From Turritopsis dohrnii (lineage: Eukaryota > Cnidaria > Hydrozoa > Anthoathecata > Oceaniidae), in contig BQMF02000609.1 in the NCBI GenBank assembly GCA_027922465.2, positions 1 through 64,000 of the forward strand: DNA of 64,000 bases, in the 5' to 3' direction. Below are positions 14,646 to 62,385 of the stretch, one piece after another. Position numbers and translations under genes: made by a program. Below the pieces are notes generated by a model. The model was not told the origin of the DNA. It was given only the letters and a program-made list of their open reading frames with translations, and searched no databases. Positions within the stretch are counted from its first letter, which is position 1. Each line of letters opens with the position of its first letter.

Positions 14646-15316
14646 ACATGTATTTGGTTGGAAAGTATTCTCTTATCTGGTATTTAATAGATGACTTTCT
14701 TAAGTGACACAGTATTTATAAATGCATGTGTTCTTTCCTCAATAATTTCTCAATGTTTCAATATGAAACGTTAATGATCAAGTCATACTGACTTTCACTT
14801 CCGACACACATACACAGGTAGGTGAATTTATATGCTTATTTTCCGAGGGGTCCATTTGGTAGTAAAGTAAGATTTTTCAAGAATAGACATTAGTGATTTC
14901 ACTTACTTTCATTACTTGTGTGTATGGAAGTAAGCAGTCATATGCGTTTGGAAGTCATCTATATAGTAACTTCCTCCATTATAGTTAGCTTAGAGAGAAA
15001 TAGGGTAAAATAGCTACATTTTTCAAGAAGTTCTTTAACGAATAACCAGTTTTTTGAAATGACAATGGAGATGACAATGGAGAGCAAAAAACGAATCAAT
15101 AAATTTTTTCTTGTATATAACTGTGTAAGAACTTTACTCTACCACTATTTGAGTTTCAAAATATAATTACGTATAATAATTGTTATAATTTTCATGCGGC
15201 TTTGTAAATATTTTCTTTCTTCATTGCATTCATATTTTGAATTTGTTTTCTTTTGTTGATGAAAAAAAGCCTTTCTAATTAAAAAATAGAATAAAAAACA
15301 TAATATTATAATATTA
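14646..15316. other. No gene recognised
   Basis: This is AT-rich DNA between a MITE relic and the satellite array. I see no exon or structured repeat in it. Confidence 0.4.
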
Positions 15317-18215
15317 CTAGTATCTCGCGTAAAAGTTTTTTACGACTTTAATTTCGAAAAGAATCTGCAGAAATGACGCGTTCCCCGTGTGTGTACCCCG
15401 TGACGAAAATTTTAATTACGGAATTGGAAATGGAAAGTGTACCCAAGCTGTAGAGCTTGAAAAACTGATCAAAAAAATGTATGGGATCGTTTCGCTACGA
15501 TCAACCGTTGCAGAGATATCAGCGATCAAAGATTTTAATGACGTCATAGCCGCAGTACCAAATAAAATTTAGGCCCAAATGTTGCGTCACCCCATCACCC
15601 GTGTTGCCGACCCTAAAAAACGTCAGTTATCGCTATTGGTTCTCGAGATATTTCTCCAAAAACGCCGAGTTCGATTGGGGATGCAATGCAATGGCTCCCC
15701 CGTGATACGACAAAAATAACTGACGTCACGCCGCGTGCTATTATACTAATCGCCAATTATCAATGGTCTAACGAAAAAATGACCACGATTAAGAAGATTT
15801 TGACCGTAAATTTGAGAAAAAACAAAACACTCTCTAAGTTAAATGTGTTACACACATTGCGAATTAGTATAAGTAGACTAGTATCCCGGGTAAAAACTTT
15901 TTACCGAACTTAACTTCGAGAAAACATTAGGTCAAATCCACCATTCCCGTGTACGTACCTGGTGACGGAAAAATAAATCATAGAATCGCAACTCATAAGT
16001 GTACCTATGTTGTAGAGCTCGAAAAACTGATCAAAAAAATGTATGGGATCGTTTCGCTACGACCAACCGTTGCGGAGATATCGCTGATCAAAGATTTCAA
16101 TTACGTCATATCCGCAGTACCAAATAAAATTTAGGCCCAAATGTTGCGTCACCCCGTCACCCGTATCGCTTACCCAAAAAACGTCAGTTATCCCTATTGG
16201 TTCTTGAGATATTTCCCCAAAAACGTCGCATTCGATTGGGGATGCAATGCAATGATTCCCCGTGATACCACAAAAATAACTGACGTTACGCCGTGTGCTA
16301 TTATACTAATCGTCAATTATCAATGGTCAAACGAAAAAATGACCACGATTAAAAAGATTTTGACCGTAAATTTAGAAAAAACACAACACTCTCTAAAATA
16401 AAAGTGGTATGCACGATTGCGGATTAGTATAAGTAGACTAGTATCCCGGGTAAAACCTTTTTACCGAACTTAACTTCGAAAACATTAGGTCAAATCCACC
16501 ATTCCCGTGTACGTACCCCGTGACGAAAAAATAAATCATGGAATCGCAACTCAAAAGTGTACCCATGTTGTAGAGCTCGAAAAACGGATCAAAAAAGTGT
16601 ATGGGATCGTTTTGCTACGACCAACCATTGCAGAGATATCCTCGATCAAAGATTTTGATGACGTCATATCCGCAGTACCAAATAAAATTTAGGCCCAAAT
16701 GATGCGTCACCCCATCACCCGTATTGCTGACCCCAAAAAACGTCAGTTATCCCTATTGGTTCTGGAGATATTTCCCCAAAAACGTCGCGTTCGATTGGGG
16801 ATGCAATGCAATGATTCCCCGTGATCATAAAACATCTGACGTCAAATGATGCCACGTGCTTTTGGAATGATCGTGAAAAAAGTGTCTCTCGCGTCTACGT
16901 GGTTTTACGCGCACATAAGAGGACGATGACCGTAAATTAAAACTAAATATGTCACTCTCTAAAATAAAAACCGGATGCACAATCGCGAATTAGTATAATA
17001 AGATAGTATCTCGCGTAAAAGTTTTTTACGACTTTAATTTCGAAAAGAATCTGCAGAAATACGACGCGTTCCCGTGTGTGTACCCCGTGACGAAAATTGT
17101 AATTACAGAATTGGAAATTGAAAGTGTACCCATGTTGTAGAGCTTGAAAAACTGATCAAAAAAGTGTATGGGATCGTTTCGCTACGACCAACCGTTGCAG
17201 AGATATCCTCGGTCAAAGATTTTAATGACGTCATAGCCGCAGTACCAAATAAAATTTAGGCCCAAATGTTGCGTCACCCCATCACCCGTGTTGCCGACCC
17301 TAAAAAACGTCAGTTATCCCTATTGGTTCTCGAGATATTTCCCCAAAAACGTCGCGTTCGATTGGGGTTGCAATGCAATGATTCTCCCGTGATGCGATAA
17401 AAATAACTGACGTCACGCCGCGTGCTATTATACTAATCGTCAATATTATCAATGGTCTAACGAAAAAATGACCACGATTAAGAAGATTTTGACCGTAAAT
17501 TTGAGAAAAAACAAACACTCTCTAAGTTAAATGTGTTACACACTACGCGGATTAGTATAAGTAGACTAGTATCCCGGGTAAAATCTTTTTACCGAACTTA
17601 ACTTCGAAAACATTAGGTCAAATCCACCATTCCCGTGTACGTACCACGGGACGAAAAAATAAATCATAGAATCGCAACTCAAAAGTGTACCCATGTTGTA
17701 GAGCTTGAAAAGCTGATTAAAAAAATGTATGGGATCGTTTCGCTACGACCAACCGTTAGAGAGATATTGTCGATCAAAGATATTGATGACGTCATATCCG
17801 CAGTACCAAATAAAATTTAGGCCCAAATGATGCGTCACTCCATCACCCGTGTCGCAGACCCCAAAAAACGTCAGTTATCCCTATTGGTTCTCGAGATATT
17901 TCCCCAAAAACGTCGCGTTCGATTGGGGATGCAATGCAATGGTTCCCCGTGATCATAAAAAACTGACGTCAAATGATGCCACGTGCTTTTGGAATGATCG
18001 TGAAAAAAGTGTCTCTCGCTCTACGTGGTTTTACGCGCACATAAGAGGACGATGACCGTAAAATAAAACTAAATATATCACTCTCTAAAATAAAAGTGTG
18101 ACACACAGCGCGGATTATTATAATAAGACTAGTATCCCGGGTAAAAACTTTTTACCGAACTTAACTTTGAAAACATTAGGTCAAATCTGCCATTCCTGTG
18201 GTACGTACGCGTCAC
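15317..18215. repeat. ~562-bp satellite array, 5 full units plus a truncated sixth
   Basis: Units begin at TAGTATC(C/T)CG near 15317, 15878, 16438, 17002, 17566 and 18129, spacings of about 560-564. Two start types exist. Type A (TATCTCGCGTAAAAG, units 1 and 4) has TCTGCAGAAAT; type B (ATCCCGGGTAAAA, units 2, 3, 5, 6) has CATTAGGTCAAATCCACCAT. Two end types exist as well: units 1, 2, 4 carry CACGCCGCGTGCTATTATAC or similar, and units 3, 5 carry ATGATGCCACGTGCTTTTGG. Each unit holds many TGACGTCA-type sites. Four units keep a 61-codon frame (VVELEKLIKKMYGIVSLRP core) and unit 4 breaks it with a stop. Units are so similar that the open frame is weak evidence of coding. Unit 6 stops after about 87 bases. 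Confidence 0.93.
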
Positions 18216-34989: not shown

Positions 34990-35078
34990 ATTTCATTTCA
35001 TAAAATCTCCGCCCGATCTAATACTGGTGTATACGCCCATTCACGCCTTCAGGCTGAAAGTCATCCTTCACGACCTCT
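34990..35078. repeat. Left inverted terminal repeat of the DIRS element
   Basis: These 89 bases, including CCGCCCGATCTAATACTGGT and GCCCATTCACGCCTTCAGGC, are repeated in inverted orientation at 38182-38270 with only a few differences. Inverted terminal repeats together with a tyrosine recombinase are the hallmark of DIRS1-type elements. Confidence 0.85.
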
Positions 35079-35250
35079 TTCGTCAATTCTCGCCAAACAA
35101 AATGGACGCACAGTAAGTAATTGGATAAGTTTAGGTATTTAATTCGCCAATTATCTGAGTAATCATTCCGTGATTAAAGATAAGATTTAATGTAAAGCAT
35201 GCTACAGAGTTACAATCATACTCTAGCAAGAAGTTGATGCTAACGAGACT

Positions 35251-36586
35251 ATGTTCAAACGTCTCTTTCATAGGTTGACTCAGACAGCAACCAGTACACA
35301 ACATCAATCTGATTCTGTTCAGCCCCAGGCGCAGGTCAGCATTGAAGAGAATAACCCACCTGATACCAAGATTACGTCCGGTGAAGGAGAGGAAGAAATA
35401 CATGAGCCTCCAGCTAAACGACCAAGATTCGAGCTGGGGCCAGAGAGCAATGAGAACTCTTGGGAATTACCCAATGGTTTATTGGAGTATGTTCATAAAT
35501 ATATGAGCATACATATTGCTGATAAGGACATAGAGGAACAGATTTTGCAAAGTTCCCCAGAACCGAGTAATCTACGAAAGGTACCTAAACTCGATAACTA
35601 TATCAAGAAATTTATTGCAATCCAATTCGAAGTTTTCCACGTTGAAGCATGAACGAAATCTTAAATTGATTCAAGAAAAATTGTGGAGAGTGTTTGGTCC
35701 AGTGTCCCAGCTCTGGGCAACTATAGAGGGGGAAAGAGAGGATTCTTCGCCAGATGAAGGCTTGGATCAAATATCAACCTTGTTTGATCAATCTATTATG
35801 TTGTTTACACAAGTATTCAACTCTATATCACATCAAAGAAGAGAAAATATCTTGTCTGCTCTGATGGAGTCACAATCAAGAGTGAAGGACATTCTAAAGA
35901 ATCAGTCAAAGTCGCTGGATGTAGCCTCAAATACTGTGTTGTTTGGGGAAGAGTTCGAATCACAGTTGACTAAGGAAGCAAAGGCTTTAAAACAATCTGA
36001 GAGTTTGTTTACTGGGTTGAAACAGAAATCTACAAATTTCCAGTCAACATCAAGTAGGTCGACATCCAATGCGCCCTTTCGAAAGGGCCCCTTGTTTCGT
36101 GGGAGAGGCAGGGGGCTATTCAACACGAGAGGAAGATACCAGTTTAACTCACAGAGGGGTAAGAATTATTCCTATTCCTTTGTCAAAGCCAGTAAGAAAC
36201 TCGGAGCTTATTCTTTCAAAAATTCACCTATTAGTAAAGAAAATGTTTCCAGAAGATCTAATCCCCAATCTGCCTCAAGCAGGGAGACTGAAGTGGTACA
36301 TTCGAAATTGGGAAGTTCTGACTCAAGATCCTCAGATTTTAGGGTTTGTAAAAGGGTATCAAATTCCTTTTCAGTCCCTCTCCCCGTCTCAACTTCAGCC
36401 TCCTCACGGTGGAAATTTCAAGTTAGAGGAGAAAAATATAGTGAACAAGGAAATTCAGGAAATGTTACGCAAACAAGCTATAGAGATTGTGGAAAGTCCT
36501 TCACAGCGCCATTTCCTCAGCTCCATCTTCGTTATCCCAAAGAAGGAGTCGGGTTACAGACCAGTAATAAATCTGAGGAATTTTAA
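35251..36586 (+). pseudogene. DIRS gag-like ORF, frameshifted
   Basis: The first frame (35251-35652, 133 codons) opens with a Gln/Ser-rich stretch, an acidic stretch and a basic PPAKRPRFE. It then has WELPNGLLEYVHKYMSIHI and PEPSNLRKVPKLDNYIKKF, which are typical of the structural protein of DIRS elements. A frameshift near 35620-35650 moves the reading to the frame starting at 35615. That frame continues KHERNLKLIQEKLWRVFGPV and ends in an Arg/Gly-rich nucleic-acid-binding segment (KGPLFRGRGRGLF). The C-terminal part overlaps the pol frame. The ORF is not intact, so the copy should not make a full structural protein. Confidence 0.7.
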
Positions 36587-37544
36587 CAGGCACATTCCGT
36601 ATCAGCACTTCAAGATGGAAGGCCTATCCCTGTTGAAGGAACTGTTACAAAAAGGGGATTATATGATAAAGATAGATCTCAAGGATGCTTACTTCTCAGT
36701 GCCTCTGAGCAAAAGCTCTCAAAGATATGTGAGTTTTTTATGGGAGGGAAACATTTATCAGTTTCTCTGCCTGTGTTTTGGCCTGGGTCCAGCCCCACGA
36801 ATCTTTACGAAACTATTGAAAATTCCAGTAGCAATATTAAGGAGGTTAAATGTTCGTCTGATAATTTATCCGGACGATTGCCTGATTTTAGCATCAACTC
36901 AGGAGGAAGTGGAGATGGCAAGAGACACTCTCATCTTCATTCTTCAACATTTGGGCTTCACTATCAATTTTCAAAAATCAGTTCTTCAACCATGTCATCT
37001 TATTCAGTTTCTGGGTATAGAGATAGATTCGAACAATTTAAAATGATTTCTTCCCCAGGGAAAAATGGAGAGGATTGTATCTCATTGTCAGGATCTTCTA
37101 GCAGCAGAAAAGGTGTCTGTAAGGGATTTAATGAAAGTTGTGGGTCGCCTCTCGTCCTCGGCCATTGCGGTATTTCCCGCTCCACTTCAATACAGAGCTA
37201 TGCAAAGACAACAAATTCTAGAGTTTGCGAAAAATCAGAATTACGATGTACAAATAGTTTTGAATCAAGAGACAAGGGAGGAACTAAAATGGTGGATAGA
37301 GAATCTCCATCTTCACAATGGGGTGGGAATAGTGTCGACACAACCTCAACTAGTGATTTCATCAGATGCATCTCTACAAGGATGTGGGGCATCCTGCAAG
37401 GGACTCAACACCGGGGGACAGTGGTCACGGAGGGAGAAGGAATACCACATCAATTATCTAGAATTAAAAGCAGCAAAACTGGCAATATTGTCTTTTGCAG
37501 GTTTCCTCAGAGTTCCTCAATACACATTTAAATGGACAATATAG
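36069..37544 (+). pseudogene. DIRS reverse transcriptase and RNase H, one in-frame stop
   Basis: The pol frame carries PQAGRLKWYIRNWEVLTQDP at its N end, then reverse-transcriptase motifs in order: SSIFVIPKK, YRPVINLRNFN, KIDLKDAYFSVPL (Asp203), FGLGPAPRIFTK and IIYPDD (267-270). DIRS elements normally have Y-L-D-D here; Pro replaces Leu while both Asp remain. A TGA at 37044-37046 interrupts the frame after FLGIEIDSNNLK. The same frame resumes (37065-37544) with RNase H motifs: VISSDASLQGCGA and YLELKAAKLAIL. The third RNase H acid lies in the next frame, after a frameshift near 37535. The true pol start is uncertain, because the first 30 codons are gag sequence read out of frame. Confidence 0.85.
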
Positions 37545-37891
37545 TGGCTCTAACATATCTTATGAAGATGGGGGGAACCAAGAGCGAAGTCCTGTCTGGG
37601 TTAAGCAAAGAAATTTGGAAATATCTGTTGGATCATCAGATCACAATTACTGTCGAGTACCTTCCAGGGATTTTAAATATAGCCAGGGCACACGAAATTT
37701 GTTCTCTAGACACCAAGTACTTGGTTAAACATCATACAGGTTATACTTTTCATTTCGGAGAGATAACTAAAACGGCAAGAAAAGGGAAGTTGAGATCTCC
37801 TATAAAGTTTTCCCATTTTAAGGAGAATAAAGAGTGTCTGTCACTATATAGATATTTATTTGGAAAGAACCAGATTATGGAGAGGGAATGA
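37532..37891 (+). pseudogene. RNase H tail fused to recombinase linker by an internal deletion
   Basis: The frame begins MDNIVALTYLMKMGGT, the RNase H segment with its last acidic residue. It goes on through LPGILNIARAHEIC and changes at about residue 63 to TGYTFHFGEITKTARKGK, which belongs to the N-terminal half of the tyrosine recombinase. In complete DIRS elements several hundred residues separate these two. The join points to a deletion of the intervening pol end and recombinase start. Confidence 0.6.
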
Positions 37892-38192
37892 GAGTTTTTT
37901 GTTGTTAGGTATAGTTAAACCTCACAAACATGTAAAGTCATGTACGGTTTCTAAGTGGATCTTAGAAATTCTCTCCCTGGCAGGCGTAGATACTTCAACA
38001 TTTAAGGCACATTCTACAAGGTCTGCATCTTCGTCAAAGGCAAAATGTCAAGGAATTCCTATAGCAGAAATTGTTAAAAGAGGTCATTGGTCGTCGGTTA
38101 GTACTTTTGAAAAGTATTATCACAGAGATGTGAGGGTGAGAGAGAATGATACATACGAATCCTCAGTTTTACGCTTTGAACAGAGGTCGTGA
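37860..38192 (+). pseudogene. DIRS tyrosine recombinase, C-terminal half
   Basis: This frame contains the C-terminal catalytic motifs of a tyrosine recombinase: AHSTRS (H-x2-R, residues 51-54), GHWSSVSTF (75-83) and EKYYHRD with the putative nucleophile Tyr at 86 or 87. The first catalytic Arg and the N-terminal core-binding domain are missing or sit in the preceding frame. The frame ends inside the right inverted repeat. Without the N-terminal half the protein would be inactive. Confidence 0.8.
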
Positions 38193-38396
38193 AGGATGAC
38201 TTTCAGCCTGAAGGCGTGAATGGGCGTATACACCAGTATTAGATCGGGCGGAAATTTTATGAAATGAAATTGAGGATTGCGCAAGGGCGCGAAGCGCCTG
38301 CAGTGCAATCCCGATTTTATAAATAAAATCGAAGCCAACGATCTAATACTGGTGTATACGCCCATTCACGCCTTTAGGATTAAAGTCATTCGAATA
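38182..38396. repeat. Right inverted repeat of DIRS plus a second, direct terminal copy
   Basis: 38182-38270 is the inverted copy of the left terminal repeat. After about 68 bases, with a GCAAGGGCGCGAAGCGCCTGC hairpin-like phrase, the left-repeat sequence appears again in direct orientation (38339-38385, GATCTAATACTGGTGTATAC). DIRS elements carry an internal complementary region near the right repeat; this direct copy could be that region or a remnant of another copy. The two halves form a large imperfect inverted repeat. Confidence 0.65.
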
Positions 38397-39334: not shown

Positions 39335-41362
39335 GGTGGTTCCAGGGGAAACAAGGATTTTTTTTAAAAAAATTGTTATTTTTCAAAATGCTTTGGTACA
39401 AAGTTGTATCCTATCAAAATAGGAAGAAATAGGAAAAATTACCTATGACGTCACTAATTATGCGAATAATTAACGATTTTTAAGACAAAAATATAGGGTA
39501 TTTTTCAACAAGGATATCTCTAGATAGACTTATTCAATCAAGCTGAAACTTTGTGAGTGTTTCAATATAAGGTAGATGCAGGGACTGTATGATTTAGTTT
39601 TTTTATTTTTTACCTAGTTCTCACCTGGTTGGATATCAAACTTGAATTAGCGGAAAGTTAAAATACCATGGGCTACATGATGGATTCTGGAAGTGAAAAA
39701 ATAGCTTAATTTGAAAAACTAATTCATTCAGTCCCTGCTAAATATAATGAAGAGTAAATGTTCAAAATTTCAGCTCAAAAGCTTGTTTCAATCAAAAGTT
39801 ATCTTTGTTAAGAGCTTAAAAATCTGCGAAAATCTTGTTTTGAGATATCAGCAAATGAAAAAAAAGTACATAAATAAATTAGAAAAAAATTGTAAAAAAC
39901 CTAATCAAAGACCAACAAATGCACCATATCCATAGGTTTCTCTCTCTTCAAGTATGTTTTTATCCTCATATCCTTTTCTAGCAGCTCTCTGCGCTTCTTT
40001 CTACTGTTTTTAGCTTGGTCCGTTGACTTGCGGTTTGACTCTTTCACGCGTTTCAAGTCTGCTTTATGAAAACCAGTTTCAGCATAATATCCCGGTTCTA
40101 AACCAAGTTTTTTAAATACAGGTAACAGTCCAGGTTTCCCCATCATTGTAGGAAATCACAGCAGATGATACAGCTGTCTTAAAGGTACCATTGAGAGACG
40201 AAAAGCCGCGCTTCTGCCTGGCGCTGTCACCGCTGACAGCTATATTTGCAATATCATCATCATCAACATTACTGTGATCACCCTCCTTTGTTTTATTATG
40301 AAATTCACTTGCAGCTCTAGACATGGACTCATTTGATGTCTCTACATAAGCATTGTGGACCAAGGAATTGATATCTTCAAATGTTGTTTTTGACATAGGC
40401 TTTGGCATGTTCATACATCGGCATAAACTTTCAATGCCGCTGAACCCAATACCATTCTCACGAAATGCGATTACTGTCCTTCTATTAATGTCAAACCCTT
40501 CTACCATTAACTGGATTTGGTTTTTCACACTCTCTTGAGGAGCAAAACCTAAGTTGCCACGGACAGTCTGTACAAGAGATTGAGCCATTCCCATTACAGC
40601 GTGTAAAAGATGCTCAACGTTGACGGATGCCGCACAATCGGAGCACCTTCCTATCATTAAAAAATCAATGCCATGGAACTATCACTCTCCAATATAAAGT
40701 TACAATTAGTCACAAACACTTTCTCTTGTTGATTTGGCTCTTCAGTAACACTACTACAGTTAAGTTTGGCAGCTGATGCCCCAGTTGCTGTTCGGTTCAG
40801 GCGGTTCCAAAGGTACTTGTTCAGGAGCCGGCGTGGTGTTGTTGTTGTCTTTGTCAGACCAGGTACTTGTACCATTAAAACCTTTTCTCTTCTTTGCTCT
40901 CTTCCTTTGATAACATTTTGAGTTACCCATGATTGTATTTGAGAAGAGGAAACAAGATTATAATGCACATAAAACTGTAGGAAGAATTTGCAGCCTCCCT
41001 CCCCAGGAGCTCTAACTTTGAGAACGTTTTAGGGTAGTTATGGTGTATACTTTCTAGCCAAAAAAGGCCGTAAGAGATAGAACAATCATTTGGGCGTCGA
41101 ATGGCGTTATTTTCACGCACGTACGGCTTTTTTTCAGAGAGATATTAGCCCAAATTGGTTGCTAAGGGCTGTTGCTAGGAGACATTTTGGAAATTTAGAT
41201 TCTGACTACATGTAATCTTGGGTAAAATTTGCAAAATATTTTCAAGACCTATGAAAACCAATTATACCACCTTAAAGCTGATTGGTTAAGCTTTCTAACG
41301 GTATATAATACTCAATTTTGAAAAAAAGTCAAAAAATGACTTTTGTTTCCCCTGGAACCACC
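39335..41362. mobile_element. Mutator-like element, internally deleted, 20-bp perfect ends
   Basis: The left end GGTGGTTCCAGGGGAAACAA is exactly matched by the reverse complement of the right end. TTAC flanks both sides (39331-39334 and 41363-41366), a 4-bp duplication, shorter than the 8-11 bp usual for MULEs. The interior holds transposase remnants on the minus strand. Length is about 2.0 kb. The perfect ends point to a fairly recent insertion of a deletion derivative that needs a transposase in trans. Confidence 0.85.
39901..40926 (-). pseudogene. Mutator-like transposase, frameshifted and internally deleted
   Basis: From the ATG at about 40929 the protein opens MGNSKCYQRKRAKKRKGF. A frameshift leads to a middle frame (CSSVTEEPNQQEKV onward) and another to the frame at 40657-40112. 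The latter has RCSDCAASVNVEHLL, GIGFSGIESLCRCMNMPKPM and a partly preserved AVSGDSARQKRGFSSLNG. These blocks characterise the Mutator-like transposase domain of animal MULEs. After about residue 170 the reading jumps to GKPGLLPVFKKLGLEPGYY and VKESNRKSTDQAKNSRKKRR, which belong near the C terminus, so most of the catalytic core is missing. Two frameshifts and the deletion make it inactive. Confidence 0.8.
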
Positions 41363-42801: not shown

Positions 42802-42807
42802 TTTATT
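42802..42807 (-). terminator. Polyadenylation signal of the peptide gene
   Basis: AATAAA on the minus strand lies 81 bases beyond the stop codon of the Arg-rich peptide gene, in a suitable place for 3' end formation. Confidence 0.55.
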
Positions 42808-42887: not shown

Positions 42888-43478
42888 TTATCTTCTCATT
42901 CGCATATGTCTTTCCCACCATCTTCTACGAGTCCTTGGAAAGCGAAAATTTCTTAGATGGCGAGTTCTTGGAAAGCGGGGGTTCGGCAATCGAAATCTGC
43001 GAGTAAACCACGGATCATTATTTATTAACTCATGCACACCGCCTTCATCCATTTCTTCTAAATCAATTTCATCTGCAGAAAGAACGTTAAATTCCAAAAT
43101 ATATATTTGATAGTAATATATTTAATGGTAACCAACAGATTTTTTTGACTTAATCGTACCTTCATTGTCATCTACCGATTCATAATCATCTGCATCTGAG
43201 TTAGCAGAATCAGCTTGTTGTAGCTTCAAAACGTTTTTGATAAAACTTTCATAATCTTCCTTTTCTGAGTCATCAACTTGTTCATTCTTTAAAACGTTTT
43301 CGCCATAATTTCCTTCATCCGATTGTGGAATTCTAAGTTCTAAATGAAATATAAATGTAACCTATTGATTAATTTGAGCCAGAAAATTGTTTCTAAAACA
43401 GAATGTAGAATAGTCAATACCTGCTCTGCAACTGATAGCAGTTGATAGCAATATAACACTCAAGAACAACTTCATCAT
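42888..43478 (-). CDS. Secreted Arg-rich antimicrobial-type peptide precursor, 3 exons
   Basis: Three minus-strand exons (43478-43421, 43339-43160, 43072-42888) join in phase 1 at GT/AG borders to give 140 aa. Residues 1-18 (MMKLFLSVILLSTAISC) are a signal peptide. Residues about 20-98 are strongly acidic (DDSEKEDYESF, NSDADDYESVDDNEDEIDL). The last 40 residues are highly basic, with 16 Arg, 2 His and a single Glu, and include two related blocks (NPRFPRTRHLR and NFRFPRTRRRWW). Signal peptide, charge-neutralising acidic pro-part and cationic tail is the layout of arminin-type precursors of Hydra and of other secreted antimicrobial peptides. The expected role is secretion and attack on microbial membranes after cleavage. 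It has no Cys, unlike hydramacin- or defensin-type peptides. A TATA box and a polyadenylation signal flank it. Family membership is inferred from architecture, not from a database match; the exon structure itself is strong. Confidence 0.75.
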
Positions 43479-43528: not shown

Positions 43529-43535
43529 TTTTATA
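43529..43535 (-). promoter_or_regulatory. TATA box of the peptide gene
   Basis: TATAAAA on the minus strand lies 51 bases upstream of the first ATG (43478), leaving room for transcription to start near 43500. The EnSpm-like transposon begins 152 bases further upstream. Confidence 0.6.
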
Positions 43536-44684
43536 CATTTTAATCTGCTTTTCACTTAAAATCTCATCTAATTAACTATTAAAAATATATGAGTTCATTG
43601 AGAGCACTATTTAGAAGATACAGTTGATGGAAAGCGCACAAAAAAAGGTTTCCATGCAACAACAGTTTCCAAAGGAGTTTCGCTCACCCAGTTAGCATCC
43701 GACGTCAACCCGACGTTGTATTGCAGTTGCATTTTAGTGGTTTCATTGTCGCAACCATTATACGACCAAAATGAACGTCGGAACGACGGTCACTTTTAGT
43801 TGCGACTGAAAATGACCATAAATCAACCATATCAAAAACGATTGACTTCACGAATATTTTTTCAAGGCGCTTCATTATTATTAAGATTAAACATAACACA
43901 GTGAAGGAAATGCAATTACAATGTCATTAGAACATCCAACGTTGTTTCAACGTCGAAACGACGTCGCAAAATTTTATTCATAATTTTCGCGCCAAGAACT
44001 TTATGCGCCTGCGTGATTCGAGTATTTTCGTGATAGGTGAACAGAGCGCGGGAACATTTGATTTATGTTTATGAGCGAAGGGAACGTATCAGTTTGCATG
44101 AATTTTCTTTGCTTTTGTTAACTTAATATTTACAAACAGTTTCCACGTCATCTGTTCGTTTATTGCTTGATGTAAGTAGAAATTTTTACCTATTATTTTA
44201 TATGTTTGCGAGCTATCCCACTTTCTTCACACCAAGAACTAGAATTACAGTCATTGCCTGCTGGCTCTTTTTTATGTTTTATGATGATCATATGTAGGGC
44301 ATTTAAATCTCTGTTGCTACATATTTTTTGGTATTTTTTTCACAATCTTTTCTTAGAATGTATATCAACAAAAAGAACCTTGAAGAAAATTTTCAGGGCC
44401 CTTTTTCCATTTCACTCCCCTGTATTTTTTCGCTGAAAACCATTCTGCACAGCACAAGAAACATATCTAGTGAAAAACATGATATTTCATTCCAATTCAG
44501 TTCATATTAAAACATAAAACATAATAGCTGAAGCATTTGCATCTTCGCTCTTTTGAATTTGAAGCACTCTCCTTCTTGGAGACTTAATGCTGTCTTTGTG
44601 AAAAGGAAATACTCCATTGTCAGGAAAGTTATATATAAGTCAGTTAATGTCAGTTTGTTTTCTTGATCTAGTCTCTGTGTTAAA

Positions 44685-46550
44685 ATGTCATCGAGAACAT
44701 CGAATTGGAGACAGAGAAATAAAGAATTGTTGCTTTACTTGGAGAAATCAAGCCATGAGGATGAGAACGAAAATGATGTTGTTATTGAAGGAGAAAGTGA
44801 AAATTCCTTGTCTTCTGAGGATGAGTTCACATCCATGGATTTGTCCTTTGAATCAAGTGAAGATGCTGACCTAGGCCAGTGTCATGGTGAAGATGATCAA
44901 ACGTTTAGCAAAAAATTGGCACATTGGGCAATCCACGAGAATATCTCTCACTCAGCTATGAATGGGTTGCTATCAATTTTAAGGGAGCATGGATGCAAAG
45001 AACTTCCTGTGGATGCCAGGACCCTGTTAAGAACCCCAAGTAAAGTTACAGTATCCAACAAATGTGGTGGGGATTACATATATCTTGGTATCAGGCAAGG
45101 GATTTTAAGACAATCTCCAAATATCACTGGGACAAAAATTCTATTGACAGTGAATATAGATGGCTTGCCATTATTCAAGAGCTCTGGTACCCAGGTATGG
45201 CCAATTCTAGGCAGGGTGAATGATGGAAAACCTTATGCCATTGCATTGTTTTGTGGCCAGCAAAAGCCAGATTCTGTGACGGATTTTTTGAAAGATTTTT
45301 TAGAGGAATACAGCCATTTGCTTATTAATGAAGTTGAGATAGATCATGACAAGAAAGAATTTCAACTCAAGTGTTTCACATGTGATGCACCAGCACGCCA
45401 ATTTTTAAAATGTATTAAGGGACATACTGGATATAATTCATGTGAGCGATGTATGGTCAAAGGCGAAATTGTGGAAAGAACTATGACATTTAAAGATACA
45501 AGTTCTGAGCAGAGGAATGATTTGAACTTCAATTCCTTTAATTATACTTCACATCAACACTGTAGAAGTATTTTGTGTTCATATGACATACCATGTGTCA
45601 CAGGCTTTGCTTTGGACTACATGCACCTTGTGTGTTTAGGAGTTGTCCGAAGGATGTTGTTTCATCTTAAGGAAGGTCCAAGGATTTCAAAGTTATCACA
45701 CAGTCAGTTGAATTTGATGTCAAGCAGATTATGCAGTTTACGTAATCAGCTTCCATCAGAGTTTGCACGACAGCCTAGATCTTTGAAAGATTTGAATCGC
45801 TGGAAGGCAACGGAGTTCAAACAGTTCTTACTGTATACCGGGATTTTTGTCCTCAAGGGAGTGGTACCCAAAGCTGTCTATGAGCATTTTGTTAGTCTGA
45901 CCCTTTCCATGTCAGTTTTGCTTTATTACAGACCAACTGATGATGGATACATGGATTTGTTCAACTTCACCAAAGATCTCATTAAGTGGTTTGTTGGAGT
46001 TTCTTCGGATTTATATGGTGATTGTTTTGTTTCCTACAATGTTCATTCATTAATCCATTTACATCAGGATGTTGAAAATTTTCAATGTGGCTTAGAAGAG
46101 CTATCTGCTTTCCCTTTTGAAAATTTCATGCAGAGAATAAAGAAAATGGTTAGGAAAACTCATCAAGTTTTACCTCAAATTGCAAGAAGATTGGATGAAA
46201 TGGAAGCAAGTGAAAGTCGTTTTACTTTCAAAGAAATTCCTACTAAAATTGGTGTAAATAGAACGAATAAAAGAGATTCTTGGTTTTTTGCTAACAACAA
46301 GATCTGTGAAGTCATTGACGCAAGTGTGAATGAGGAAATTGTTGTGAACCAGTTTTCGTTTAAAAGATCATCATCATTTTTTCATGTGCCAATTGAATCA
46401 AAGGCACTGAATATCTGTTTTTTACCAAAGAATAGTCAGTTTATTGTCACCACTATTGCCAAATCTGACATTAGTAAAAAGTTTGTTGCCATTCCAGATG
46501 AAGAGGGTATCTTGCTTATACCTATGTTACATAGTATTCACTTTAAATAG
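44685..46550 (+). CDS. Tnp2-like transposase, 621 aa
   Basis: This is one uninterrupted ORF with ATG at 44685. The N-terminal 70 residues are Glu/Ser/Asp-rich. Conserved blocks follow: TVNIDGLPLFKSSGTQVWPI (Asp159), KCFTCDAPARQFLKCIKGHT (Asp234), a Cys pair at NSCERCMVKGE (253-256), FALDYMHLVCLGVVRRML (Asp311), RWKATEFKQFLLYTG (372-386) and SYNVHSLIHL to FPFENFMQRIKK (Glu479). This series is known from EnSpm/CACTA-type transposases in cnidarians, molluscs and fish. The acids named are candidates for the metal-binding DDE set, not proven. Length and lack of stops suggest a functional enzyme, which is rare in this window. It would act in the nucleus to cut and paste the element through the CCCAGT ends. 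Confidence 0.8.
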   Translation: MSSRTSNWRQRNKELLLYLEKSSHEDENENDVVIEGESENSLSSEDEFTSMDLSFESSEDADLGQCHGEDDQTFSKKLAHWAIHENISHSAMNGLLSILREHGCKELPVDARTLLRTPSKVTVSNKCGGDYIYLGIRQGILRQSPNITGTKILLTVNIDGLPLFKSSGTQVWPILGRVNDGKPYAIALFCGQQKPDSVTDFLKDFLEEYSHLLINEVEIDHDKKEFQLKCFTCDAPARQFLKCIKGHTGYNSCERCMVKGEIVERTMTFKDTSSEQRNDLNFNSFNYTSHQHCRSILCSYDIPCVTGFALDYMHLVCLGVVRRMLFHLKEGPRISKLSHSQLNLMSSRLCSLRNQLPSEFARQPRSLKDLNRWKATEFKQFLLYTGIFVLKGVVPKAVYEHFVSLTLSMSVLLYYRPTDDGYMDLFNFTKDLIKWFVGVSSDLYGDCFVSYNVHSLIHLHQDVENFQCGLEELSAFPFENFMQRIKKMVRKTHQVLPQIARRLDEMEASESRFTFKEIPTKIGVNRTNKRDSWFFANNKICEVIDASVNEEIVVNQFSFKRSSSFFHVPIESKALNICFLPKNSQFIVTTIAKSDISKKFVAIPDEEGILLIPMLHSIHFK

Positions 46551-46582
46551 TTTATGTTTATGTTTAAGATTTATATATTATA

Positions 46583-46913
46583 ATGTCTTGGAGTAGAGCA
46601 GTTTGGTTTGAACCAGCCCAAGATGGGAGTACAGTGGAGTACGAAATGACTGTACCATCTGTTTGGATTGTAAATAAAAAAATATATTGGCCTAATCACA
46701 TGAATGTTAAACGCTCGTTTAATAACCAGGAAGAGCCAACTGTATCTTGGCGTTGTTTTCCTTTAAAGAAGTTGAAACTACATGAAGGTAATTATTTTTC
46801 TTAAAAGCTATTTCTAATGAGAATGTCTAATGAAATCTAATTAAAATGTTCAATGCTTAGCTGACAAAGATTTGTGTGATCAGTTTGGTGAAACACACAC
46901 AACCACTGTCGAA

Positions 46914-46950
<37 letters not shown>

Positions 46951-49157
46951 GCTGTAATAATGGCGGTGATAATGAAGGCAATGCAAACCATTTATTTTCC
47001 CCAAGTAATTCTTTATAATATTCTGTTTTAGATGCTAAGGTAAATCAATCTGAGCCATTTTATTCCAATCATCAAAGTTTGATGGAATTTCTGATCTGGT
47101 TTTAGCTCCCAGGAAGACAAAGACCATTCCAAAACCTGTGACAAAACAGCCAATGCCTGTCTTTGGCAACTTTAATAATGAAAGGTGAATGTTTTTCGTT
47201 AGTGTTGTTTTCTTTCCTATGTGTGATATGTTTTCAATTTATGTTTGTAAGCATCCAGTGTTTTGTATCTCTTACTACAGATTGAAAAATGCTAGCAAGG
47301 CTGTAGCTCAAAAGAGAAAATCAACAGATGATCCGAGTGGTAGGGGACTAGTACTAGTGTATATAGTTACTTGGTTTGAGTAGTTCATAAATAAAGTAGT
47401 TAAAAAAAGAAAGTTTAATAGTTTACAAACATGATCTTTAGATGTTTTTTGTAGTATTTTCTTATGGAGTTCTCAGTAAAATATGTGAATACATGTCAAC
47501 TCAAGCATGTCAACTATTGTCAATATTATAGAAATTCCAACTACAGAAGAGTATTCACCAATGCCACCTAGAATAGACTCAGCAGCTGCTGTTAATAATC
47601 AATTTCCCATGTCAACAGCAAGTACGGTTCCTTATCAACCTTAGCCTCTGCATGAATTTCGAAATACTTCAATTTGACATATATTTTTATTTTTGACACC
47701 AATATACGGTTTACTGTTTTCAGGATTCCAAAAGACTGTAATGAAGTTCCTGGCAGATATTGCCCATAACCAAAAGATATTGATGCAAAAAATTACAAGT
47801 CAAGAAGCCCAAGAAACTGTAGTTGTTGGTGATAAGACAGAGAAAATTGTCAAGGAGCCTCTCCAGACAATGGCTGAATTTGATCAGCTTAATAACATCC
47901 TGGAAGATGATTTAAAATTCAAACAGATGGTATGTTTATGAGTTACAAGCAGTGCTAAATAAATTATAAGTTGCATGACTTAATAATTTCAACTTTTGTA
48001 GGTAAAGGAGATGAGTCGCCTCGGAGGAACGAGTGAAAAGAACCATGTGAGGCAGATATTGAACAGGTGGGTTGACTTTTTTCACAGTTTATTCTATCAA
48101 TCTTTTATAGCAACAGTTGTCATTTTTACCGAGCATAACTTTATAACACAATAATGTGTTTTTTCTCACTAATCTCATAACTTTTAAGCGCAGATTTATC
48201 CGATTTACAATTTGATTGCATCCAGACATTTCTGCAGAAAACTCGTTTTAAAATTTATTTACAGAAAGACAGCAATCTTGAAATTTAACTAGAAAATAAA
48301 CGAAAATTTCATACTTGAAAAATGTATTCTTTACTCGACTTCTTATTCTTTACTCTTCTTTTGAAGTAAACCAGACATTCCATTAAGTTGTATGAAAATA
48401 TCGTTCGAATTCGAATTTATTTTTAACTGATTGCTGTCTGGGCATGTTTGAGAAACGTACATGTCGTTCATGTGGCTAAATTAAAGTTTTCACTTGGTAC
48501 ATGTTGTTAATAAAAAACATTTCAAATCCAAACTAAGTTGAAATGTAAAAATGGTCCGTAAAATAATGCCCTGATTTTTTATCAAATTTAGACTGATGAA
48601 TGTTGCGCTTCAAGCAAAATTCAATTTGGTTGGTTCCAGGAAGAGGAACCTGATTGAAAAAAAAGCGTTTGCGGAAACGAGAATTTACCGGGTAGTCATC
48701 GGTAAGGATTGAATATTCAATGGAAGGAAAGAGTGTTTTTAGGGGCCAGGGTGATTTTTTTTATTTTCCATATGATCAGAAAAGTAAATTTAGTGACAAT
48801 TACATAAAAGCTAGGACCTCGTCATAATCGTCTCGTTTCGCTTTGCCGGGATAGAAAGTTCCGTATGATTAGCCGGTATGATTCTGGAAAGGCTTTTGCT
48901 TAGATAAGAAACGTTTGAAATTCATAAATAAAGTTTCTTTCTTAGATGCTGTAATGAAAAAGCACGGCAATGCTACAGAGCTTATGGTGCGGAATATCAT
49001 AGGCAACTGTTTGAAATACGTTCCTGACCGCGTCGGTGCTGGTGGAAGATGTCAAGTAACATCGCATGCGCATGACGAAACGAATTTGGACGGATCTCCC
49101 CTACCTAAAAGGAGATTCGTCACACCAACCCTTTCAGACAGTGAAAGTGAACACTAA
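46583..49157 (+). CDS. DUF4806-type accessory protein of the transposon, 9 exons
   Basis: Nine exons splice in frame at GT/AG borders: 46583-46787, 46861-47004, 47106-47184, 47281-47339, 47532-47621, 47724-47929, 48002-48066, 48592-48701 and 48946-49157 (390 codons with stop). The N terminus (MSWSRAVWFEPAQDGSTVEY onward, with WRCFPLKKLKLHEG) looks like a small domain shared by such proteins. Exon 2 encodes a run of about 12 Asp from a GAT microsatellite. Exon 6 onward gives PLQTMAEFDQLNNILEDDLK, VKEMSRLGGTSEKNHVRQIL, then FNLVGSRKRN and TELMVRNIIGNCLKYVPDRV, the pattern of a DUF4806 domain. Function is unknown; it may bind the ends or the transposase. An AATAAA (49188-49193) follows the stop. 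Confidence 0.75.
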
Positions 49158-49924
49158 ATTTGTATTAACGAATATGATACATGTTTGAATAAATTATGTT
49201 TAACAAAAAACTGTTTTCATTTATGACCATAAAAGCTCACGTGGATTCATATTTGACAAAATGACTCATAGGTCGGTTTTGGTCGTTATATAGTTGTCAT
49301 ACCGACGTTGATTTTGGTTGTAACACGGTCATCTAACGTTGTTTCAACGTCATTTCGACGTCGGGATTCGTCGTTTTATCGTCATTTTCCGACGTTGTTT
49401 CGACGTCTCAATCCGACGTTGTTTCGATGTTTCCATTTCAACTATTAAACGACCGTCATCCAACGTTGGAAAGCGACGTCAGACCGACGTTAATCCAACG
49501 TCATTTTGCTTACTGGGCATCTTAATACGATTACGACATTAATAAATAGAATAACCAGAAGCATCATAACTTTGATAAGGAATAAGATGACAAAATATCC
49601 TTAAAATCTAATATTTCGGCTTCTATCCTGAAGCCATTGTCAAAGAATGACATTATAAGACACGAAGTATTTTACGCATTATTGTTGCATCTACAACAGT
49701 ATTAGTAGTAGTTGAATGGTGTTTGCTTACGCGGCTGTACAAATATCCACCGACTCGGCTTTAAGTTTAGGGAATATTTATACAAGGTTATTTGTTAAGT
49801 TGAATCAGATTTCGATTTTGATCCGAAATATTTGTCACAAATTTAGTTTACAGAATGATAGCTATGATTAAATTTTATAGTCAAGTTCCTCTTAGTAGCG
49901 CGTAAATTCACGCAGAATTTTTTT

Positions 49925-60250: not shown

Positions 60251-62385
60251 GCGTTGCATACGGATGACGAGTAAACTCGTTTGACTTTAGTGAATCATAT
60301 TTCAACAATTGCAGTATTTTTCACATGAAATGCTGTTTTATTACAAACTTTAACCTAAATAATGACATAATTTTCATAAATGACGTTAGTGGCACCAGAT
60401 TTCAAATTTCTATCAATGTTTTGATATTATGGGGCACTTTCGCGGGTCAAATCCGTCAAAAGAAGGAAAACAAAAGTGATTCTTATTTGATGGTGACATT
60501 TCTTATCTTGAAACTATTTCTACTCAACAATTTTATTATTGATCATTTGTAATACTTATTGATTGATGATATAACCGAAAGCAGGGGTCGACGCAAAGGG
60601 CTGGTTGATCATCGCAGTAGCCACACACATAGCGTGATTCTCTCCTTATGGCGTTTTTTGTACATTGCTTACAGCGTCTTGTTGGCCTTTTCTTTTTGGG
60701 ATTGTCAGGGATGATTCTTGGATAATGAAAATTTGCCAATGGTCTTTCGGATGGGGCTTTCAATCTATTTCCAACCAGGTTCTTGATTACAACTTCACGA
60801 AAGTCGATAAGATGTTTTATTTCGTTGCTTGGGGAAAACTTTTTGTAAAGATGATCATCACTGAAGCCTTGACCGCTATACACTTCAACTTTTAATACTA
60901 ATCCATCGTGGGTACATAGCTCATAAAATTTTATGCCATATTTATGACGTTTGTTCTTTATGTATTGACGGAATACTAAACGACCTCGCCACAACATCAT
61001 GGATTCATCAATAGAAAGATTTTTCTCAGGTGTCACTATTTTCATCGTTTCGTTTAGGTGGTCTATGATCATACGGAGTTTACTTAGCCTGTCATTTTCA
61101 AAGTGTGGTTTTTCACCAAAGTTGAAAAATCGCAATATAGATTCGAATCTCTCTCTGCTAAAGACAGTTCGAAAGTGCTCGTTTTTGTAAAGAACATCAG
61201 TGCTCCAATATTTCTTGTATGATGGTAGGGCTATGAGACCCATACTGAAAATTACGCCAATAAATTTTTTCATTTCATCAATGTCCACACTCTTCCAGTT
61301 ATTCCAGGTAGATCTTCTTCGCAATGGTCGAGATGCATTGATTACCCTATCGGCATACTCATTCGTTTTCTTCACCAGTTCTTCAATAAAGTTTTCAGTG
61401 CATATCAAATTGAAGAAAAACATAGGGCTGCCATTCTCAGGAATAGCTGTTTTCAAACCAGGTGTTTCTGTAAATGGAAAATTTTTGATAACTGGAGGAT
61501 CTTGTTTCCATTCATCCCCATTATCGTCAGACTCAACCAAACTATCAGAGCTTTCAGAATCATTTTGTGTTACTTGTGTTTCACTATCCAAAGCTGCAGA
61601 CGCCAGACGCTTTGTCTGACCACCACGGGTCCGTATTCCTCTTCTAACTCCCCCTCCTCTCACTCGAGCTCTTCTCCTTGTCTGTGATCCTCTCATACAT
61701 GGACGACCTCTTTCTTTTTGAATAACCATTATATTTCTTCCATCATTACCTGGGTCTAAGTCTGGTTCAGAACAGGAGCTAGACTCGCTGAAACTATCAT
61801 CTAATGAGTCTGCTGAATCCAACTCACCAAAGTCTTCGTCATTCATAATAGCCTCACAGGCCTCTTCTGCGGTGTATCGACGTGCCATAGCTTTCTAAAA
61901 TATACAGCAGACTACAAGAAATCTCATGAATATGGCTAAAAAGATGTAAAAAAAATCTGAAGACTTATCACGTGTGACTGCACTTTACGCTTGTGTGAAA
62001 CCAAAAGAACTTATATGTGAAAAATTACAGAATATACAATAGAAAACTCACTTTGATTGGTCTAAATCAATCAGAATATGAGGTGATAGGTTGATTGAAC
62101 TATGCCAGTGTACTCGTTTTCCGTCTTCGGCATAAAAAAATCATGCACACTACGGAAAACGAGTATATTCGTCACGAGTATATTCGTTTTTCGTAGTGCG
62201 CTAATTTTTTTTTTCCCAGTACGTGAGACGAGTATACTCGTCATCATTGTTCACACTTCCTAATGTTAAAAATGTGTTTTTAAAAGCCTGTTAAAAATGA
62301 AAAAAAAAAGATATATATGTCCATAGTGGCAATCTTCCGCCGTACGCTAGATAAGGCCACTAAAAATCACTCCGTAGCCAACGCG
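60251..62385 (-). mobile_element. piggyBac element, internally deleted
   Basis: The right end reads on the minus strand CGCGTTGGCTACGGAG directly after TTAA (62386-62389), the piggyBac target site. The left end (GCGTTGCATACGGA at 60251) is a poorer match and its TTAA is degraded (AATA). Subterminal palindromes related to ACGAGTATACTCGT occur at 60258, 62107, 62156, 62172 and 62225. The enclosed transposase lacks part of its catalytic core, so the element would depend on another copy. Confidence 0.7.
60536..61888 (-). pseudogene. piggyBac transposase with catalytic-core deletion, 450 aa
   Basis: The frame is open from ATG at 61888 to 60536. The N terminus is acidic, then basic (RRARVRGGGVRRGIRTRG). 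Typical piggyBac blocks follow: FFFNLICTENFIEELVKKTN, MKKFIGVIFSMGLIALPSYK, FESILRFFNF and KNLSIDESMMLWRGRLVFRQ, with Asp294 as the first catalytic acid. GIKFYELCTHDGLVLKVEVY is next, but near residues 345-357 the sequence jumps to IKHLIDFREVVIKNLVGN, normally close to the C terminus. The stretch with the second and third catalytic Asp is therefore gone. The C-terminal Cys-rich finger (CKQCTKNAIRRE, CGYCDDQPALC) is intact. The deletion kept the frame, so a 450-aa catalytically dead DNA-binding protein could be made. Confidence 0.85.

Follow-up and report, generated by a model that had tools for sequence, protein, structure and literature searches.

A three-exon precursor gene on the minus strand

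The window analysed here, 64,000 nucleotides of contig BQMF02000609.1 (C609 below), comes from Turritopsis dohrnii, a hydrozoan outside the genus Hydra, and carries on its minus strand a gene whose three exons join to encode a product of 140 aa. Exon 1 (43421..43478, minus strand) holds the ATG and the signal peptide MMKLFLSVILLSTAISCRA and ends in phase 1, exon 2 (43160..43339, minus strand) encodes the acidic pro-region, and exon 3 (42888..43072, minus strand) encodes a hinge found throughout much of the gene family described below (DEIDLEEMDE...NDPW), followed by an arginine-rich tail and the stop. Intron 1 (43340..43420, minus strand; 81 bp, donor at 43420, acceptor end at 43340) and intron 2 (43073..43159, minus strand; 87 bp, donor at 43159, acceptor end at 43073) are both GT-AG introns in phase 1. 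A TATA box (TATAAAA, 43529..43535, minus strand) lies 57 bp 5' of the ATG, and an AATAAA polyadenylation signal (42802..42807, minus strand) lies 80 bp 3' of the stop. The first-pass annotation had placed three minus-strand exons at these borders, and the splice sites, the intron phase, a second haplotype and the paralogues all agree with it. It had also stated that no single open reading frame reveals the gene; the ORF list shows exon 3 alone, joined with intron sequence in a 69-aa TTG ORF.

The product divides sharply by charge. Its hydrophobic leader spans residues 1-19, the pro-region has a net charge of -23 over 80 aa (28 Asp and Glu residues), and the tail from Pro100 is 41 aa long with a net charge of +15 and no Cys. 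The predicted mature peptide, for which the cleavage site is inferred, would correspond to residues 100-140 (PWFTRR...MRMRR; 42891..43013, minus strand) and includes two RFPRTR blocks, which can be read off the sequence at residues 112-117 and 123-128. The signal peptide, the Asp/Glu-rich pro-region, the 40-residue tail with 16 Arg and one Glu, the duplicated F-P-R-T-R blocks and the arminin-type charge layout had all been proposed from the window alone, and each is confirmed. The proposed absence of Cys holds for the tail; the sole Cys of the precursor sits in the signal peptide. The product ends in MRMRR without a C-terminal Gly, and a dibasic site is absent at the hinge.

Haplotypes, paralogues and constraint

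A second, intact copy of the window gene lies on contig C633 in a largely collinear stretch, whose pieces align in order with C609 at about 94-99% identity, with mobile-element differences between them. The C633 stretch thus looks like the other haplotype of C609. Heterozygosity in T. dohrnii has been reported as 1.88, in an assembly (TUR_r2.0.1) of 435.9 Mb in 891 contigs with a GC content of 34.7% (PMC9835754; this and the other papers are cited from excerpts), and the GC content across the window, 0.30-0.41 in 2-kb steps, is in keeping with that figure. Between the two haplotypes, the exons of the gene differ at 3 of 423 sites as compared with 24 of 654 for the introns and flanks combined (Fisher p 0.002), a contrast that is mainly due to the flanks, the introns alone differing at 3 of 167 sites. 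Exon 2 is identical over its 180 sites, and by eye two of the three exon changes are silent and the third alters an amino acid of the signal peptide.

The haplotypes also differ in a 5.96-kb stretch upstream of the gene (43687..49648), which lies 209 bp from the start codon and in place of which C633 has about 15 bp. It contains a 621-aa transposase-like ORF (44685-46550) with relatives in Hydra and other animals and, lying beside the promoter, could shift expression between the haplotypes. Other mobile and repeated elements occur in the window: a DIRS-like element at 34990-38389, with a reverse transcriptase, short inverted repeats at its ends and, by eye, a recombinase-like frame; a Mutator-like transposase fragment at 40112-40657 (minus strand); a 450-aa transposase ORF with DDE_Tnp_1_7 and zf-Tnp_2 domains at 60536-61888 (minus strand), presumably of the piggyBac type; and a long repeat array at 15304-18208 with a period near 560 bp and units about 80-89% alike. 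No Rfam families and no tRNA were found in the window. Elsewhere in the genome, on contig C880, a CCCTAA telomere repeat of about 3.7 kb adjoins mitochondrial sequence comprising part of nad4, cob and a cox1 with a broken frame, after which come Polinton-like genes (names assigned by eye, except cox1); this junction represents either a subtelomeric mitochondrial insertion or a misassembly. The order of the mitochondrial genes on C880 is suggestive of a hydrozoan.

Paralogues A, B and C on contig C223 and D1 on contig C146 have both introns at the positions found in the window gene and in phase 1; the comparison covered these four, and D2 to D4 carry extra sequence in intron 1. At the DNA level, exon 1 of the window gene is 84-93% identical to that of A, B and C, exon-wise matches elsewhere in the genome reach E-values as low as 1e-13 at a divergent locus, and a TATA-like box precedes the ATG by 49-68 bp in all five genes measured (the window gene, A, B, C and D1). 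Summed over the six pairs among the window gene, B, C and A, dN/dS is 0.15/0.41 for the signal peptide and 0.18/0.44 for the hinge, in comparison with which the acidic spacer (0.25/0.28) is hardly constrained. Over the whole shared part the ratio is 0.84 between the window gene and B and 0.36-0.68 for the remaining five pairs. All of these ratios are indicative only because the sequences are short and copy C is partly broken. In comparisons of the window gene with B, C or A, the similarity of intron 2 (79-90%) is close to that of the exons and the similarity of intron 1 (77-80%) is lower, meaning that the duplications are not old. On this sequence evidence, the window gene is a real gene rather than a splicing artefact, and is kept in both haplotypes.

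A multi-gene family with diverse tails

The window gene is not a lone gene but belongs to a family with very different tails, which could not be seen from the window alone. Searching the genome (435,911,712 bases, 891 contigs) with the single members W (the window gene), D1 and B as queries at E <= 1e-3 gave at least 31 matching places on 15 contigs, of which 22 were read (D2 to D4 partly); the rest (four on C11, one on C625, two on C819 and two on C627) could include false matches. Merging adjoining exon matches had yielded 32 places, one of which (C254:60338-60556) was discarded as a false family member: a 15-bp minisatellite there gives LPNTR in one frame and so mimics pentapeptide repeats. 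C609 and C633 count as two places though they are likely haplotypes, and further haplotig pairs are possible; a match on C331 (E 0.005) was read and stands outside the count of 31. In the five aligned members the front half closes with a hinge consisting of EMDE and a D-P/A-[WML] step. Other members read have looser hinges, with EESDE, or nothing of the kind, before D-P.

Behind this front half, the tail of the window gene is degenerate, arginine-rich and linear, and that of B consists of eight Cys-free hPRhR pentapeptides. Other tails combine hPRhR units (three in D1, seven in C202, one in C270) with a following six-Cys domain of the pattern C-x3-C-x5-C-...-C-x-C; in C62 this domain follows an arginine run, and in C345 it occurs without preceding hPRhR units or arginine run. 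In C625 and C331 (and C627, by eye), one to three units accompany a two-Cys stretch that has GK at its end. In C9 and C61 there are 14 and 16 units, respectively, and a lysine-rich stretch, with probably a further Cys-rich exon; C172 and a second C9 copy have similar tails by eye. Finally, A ends in a different six-Cys tail that is nearly neutral. Twelve of the 13 tails measured are cationic, with net charges from +3 to +42 (two of them cut by the end of the stretch read), and tail A, at -1, is the sole exception. The tails of D1, C62 and C270 end in Gly and those of C625 and C331 in Gly-Lys.

Four D genes form a tandem array at C146:764639-779165, in units of about 4.56 kb that are 98-99% identical over most of their length. 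Copy C is out of frame before its cysteine part, or misassembled, one C11 copy lacks two of the six Cys, and no leader was seen in the 1.6 kb read upstream of the C625 copy; some family members are therefore decayed or fragments. At C625:202300-203950, the two-Cys tail ending in GK follows a Polinton-like DNA polymerase frame at a distance of a few hundred bases, and is perhaps a family fragment carried by or beside a mobile element.

One alternative reading is a family of nematocyst or venom peptides, acting against prey and not microbes, which would be secreted with an acidic pro-part and Cys-rich variants; the host is a cnidarian, the D array is a tandem expansion, and six Cys characterise the tails of D1, C62, C270, C202, C345 and the C11 copy. 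Venom peptides are, however, typically cysteine-stabilised, unlike the linear, Cys-free, arginine-rich tails of the window gene and B, and the lack of a PDB relative of the six-Cys domain and of a Pfam match over its cut-off lends this reading no support, an absence that is compatible with venom too. We regard this explanation as quite unlikely. The repeated hPRhR units recall the PRX-type peptides that hydrozoans have, and could point to a precursor of short amidated neuropeptides, of the PRX-amide or RF-amide type. By eye, though, the tails listed lack a Gly-basic site between repeats, so that the usual route to amidated peptides would not free individual units, and the repeat tail forms one block; we consider a neuropeptide precursor extremely unlikely. 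The extended repeat runs of C9 and C61, and the balance of charge between the two halves, which also fits condensation in granules, would suit a structural, adhesive or nucleic-acid-binding secreted protein without antimicrobial action, for example of a granule matrix or an egg or cyst coat. Several Cys patterns behind a similar hinge, together with amidation-like ends, would seem to fit effectors better, and we consider a structural role unlikely.

Searches for relatives outside Turritopsis

Against 5.8 billion proteins, the 140-aa product gave four candidates and an alignment of five family members gave 1322, none of them at E <= 10. Hydra proteins are included in this set, and the search with the product that had been suggested at the outset returned no arminin match. 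As a control, the window transposase ORF matched proteins of Hydra vulgaris and Clytia hemisphaerica in the same set. The best listed match of this control was 55% identical, indicating that Turritopsis proteins are probably absent from the set, and the lack of a protein match thus says nothing on close relatives. PDB yielded no relative of the 140-aa product or of the six-Cys profile, and in Pfam nothing exceeded the curated cut-off for the product and five family members or pieces of them, the lowest E-value (4e-4, for a piece of C62) falling under its cut-off. Pattern searches of prokaryote and viral contigs gave 377 and 299 matches, respectively, none of which was confirmed.

Five repeat-unit words of the family occur in none of the 5.39 million papers searched; "Turritopsis" and "antimicrobial peptide" together match one text, a Podocoryna genome preprint, in the available portion of which the two terms are unconnected; and adding "arginine-rich" leaves no match. 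The Turritopsis family is apparently undescribed, as we found no description of it in the protein and literature searches.

Proposed function and significance

We propose that the window gene of T. dohrnii, in both haplotypes, encodes a pre-pro-peptide of the secreted host-defence type with a predicted antimicrobial tail, a reading to which we assign a probability of about 0.6. The conserved hydrophobic leader would direct the product into the secretory pathway, where the acidic pro-region (-23) may mask the cationic tail (+15) within a granule. Cleavage near the family hinge, close to Asp99-Pro100, where the D-P/A-[WML] step is observed, would free the 41-residue arginine-rich peptide, which could then bind and disrupt microbial membranes, or enter bacteria in the manner of Pro/Arg-rich peptides. 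Membrane disruption is the simplest action to suppose for such a charge, and the spacing of Pro would also permit the intracellular mode. Across the family the front half appears to be kept while the tails have diversified, as would be expected of immune effectors. The Gly and Gly-Lys ends of several relatives, though not the end of the window gene itself, may also fit a role in host defence, a C-terminal Gly being the amidation signal of arminins and Trichoplax peptides (PMC12013895). The proposal is weakened by the charge of tail A (-1), by the decayed members, by the window gene having neither a C-terminal Gly nor a dibasic site, and by the ratio of 0.84 between it and B.

The peptide effectors of Hydra have been argued to have arisen de novo within the genus because no relatives were seen elsewhere (PMC10945409). 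In T. dohrnii, another hydrozoan shares this precursor layout, at no fewer than 31 places and with tails of the arminin kind and, by description, of the HyCWR kind. This puts the claim within direct reach of a test: the layout has either arisen more than once or belongs to genes of greater age than had been supposed. The Turritopsis tails also constitute a set of natural peptides that are candidate antimicrobials. Furthermore, T. dohrnii is known for the reversal of its life cycle after damage, a process during which microbial defence should matter.

Comparison with Hydra arminins and other peptides

The first-pass annotation had called the product arminin-like, and in its layout this is correct. 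Arminins likewise have a signal peptide, an anionic pro-region and a cationic, Cys-free tail (arminin 1a, PMC12011183). According to PMC10945409, the antimicrobial peptides of Hydra are made as charge-bipartite precursors and encoded by multi-gene families in clusters, and arminins resemble the Turritopsis family in being clustered and multi-gene (PMC10945409, PMC4820302, PMC12013895). Acidic cleavage motifs also occur in arminin-like precursors (PMC12013895). Membership in the arminin family itself is not supported by the comparisons made. The precursor is 140 aa long as compared with 88 aa for an arminin (UniProt D2XUU4), the window gene lacks the C-terminal Gly of arminins (PMC12013895), and the hPRhR repeats and six-Cys domains found among the tails of the family set it apart from arminins. 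In local alignments of mature arminin 1a with three family tails, the scores fell under the shuffle mean, being reached by 1371 of 2000 shuffles for the tail of the window gene, 1681 for B and 1960 for D1; this is a weak test, arminin C-terminal parts being scarcely conserved (PMC4820302). The lack of an alignment above shuffle, in addition to the lack of a protein match, is the reason why we do not file the window gene as an arminin.

A true arminin, sharing an ancestor with those of Hydra and with a tail diverged beyond recognition, would account for the common signal, acidic and basic layout, and the tail opens with PW...RR, which is reminiscent of the beginning of arminin 1a. Turritopsis and Hydra are both hydrozoans, and the scarce conservation of arminin C-terminal parts (PMC4820302) would allow for such divergence. 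Against this stand the alignments of the three tails, the single-member and family queries without a match in a protein set with Hydra proteins, and the statement, in the excerpt of PMC10945409 available, that homologues of Hydra antimicrobial peptide genes were not found in Hydractinia or Clytia. Common descent with arminins thus seems to us very unlikely. On these comparisons, which covered mature arminin 1a, we describe the gene as belonging to a Turritopsis family of its own that has the arminin layout. The suggestion made from the window alone, that outside Hydra the gene would be a new lineage or a convergent peptide, named the right pair of alternatives, and the tests made here point towards a separate family. 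The accompanying statement that the arminin family is restricted to Hydra matches PMC10945409, yet needs to be qualified in that precursors with the arminin layout have already been reported in Trichoplax (PMC12013895). Like the window gene, Trichoplax AMP1-AMP4 have acidic residues ahead of the basic part and can be likened to it by layout; they carry a C-terminal Gly or amidation signal, which is absent in the window gene (PMC12013895).

HyCWR of Hydra is described as having six Cys and a Trp-rich, strongly basic C-terminal part without a conventional cleavage site, and its paralogues sit in one locus (PMC10945409). By description alone it is close to the six-Cys relatives D1, C62, C270, C202 and C345, and six Cys, Trp and a basic tail recur in D1, C62, C270 and C345 as they are described for HyCWR, unlike the Cys-free tail of the window gene. 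All of these genes could belong to one old hydrozoan effector family, with a fixed delivery half (signal, acidic pro-part and EMDE...DPxW hinge) and exchangeable tails, of which Hydra arminins and HyCWR, regarded so far as separate genes that arose de novo in that genus, would be diverged members, a scenario we consider quite improbable. In composition, the tails also recall the proline/arginine-rich peptides Bac7 and PR-39, whose gene structure and pro-part we take to be unrelated to those of the Turritopsis family. As in these, the hPRhR units of B, C9 and C61 are rich in Arg with regularly spaced Pro, although Pro is sparser than in Bac7 and PR-39, at 9 of 55 residues in B and 5 of 41 in the tail of the window gene.
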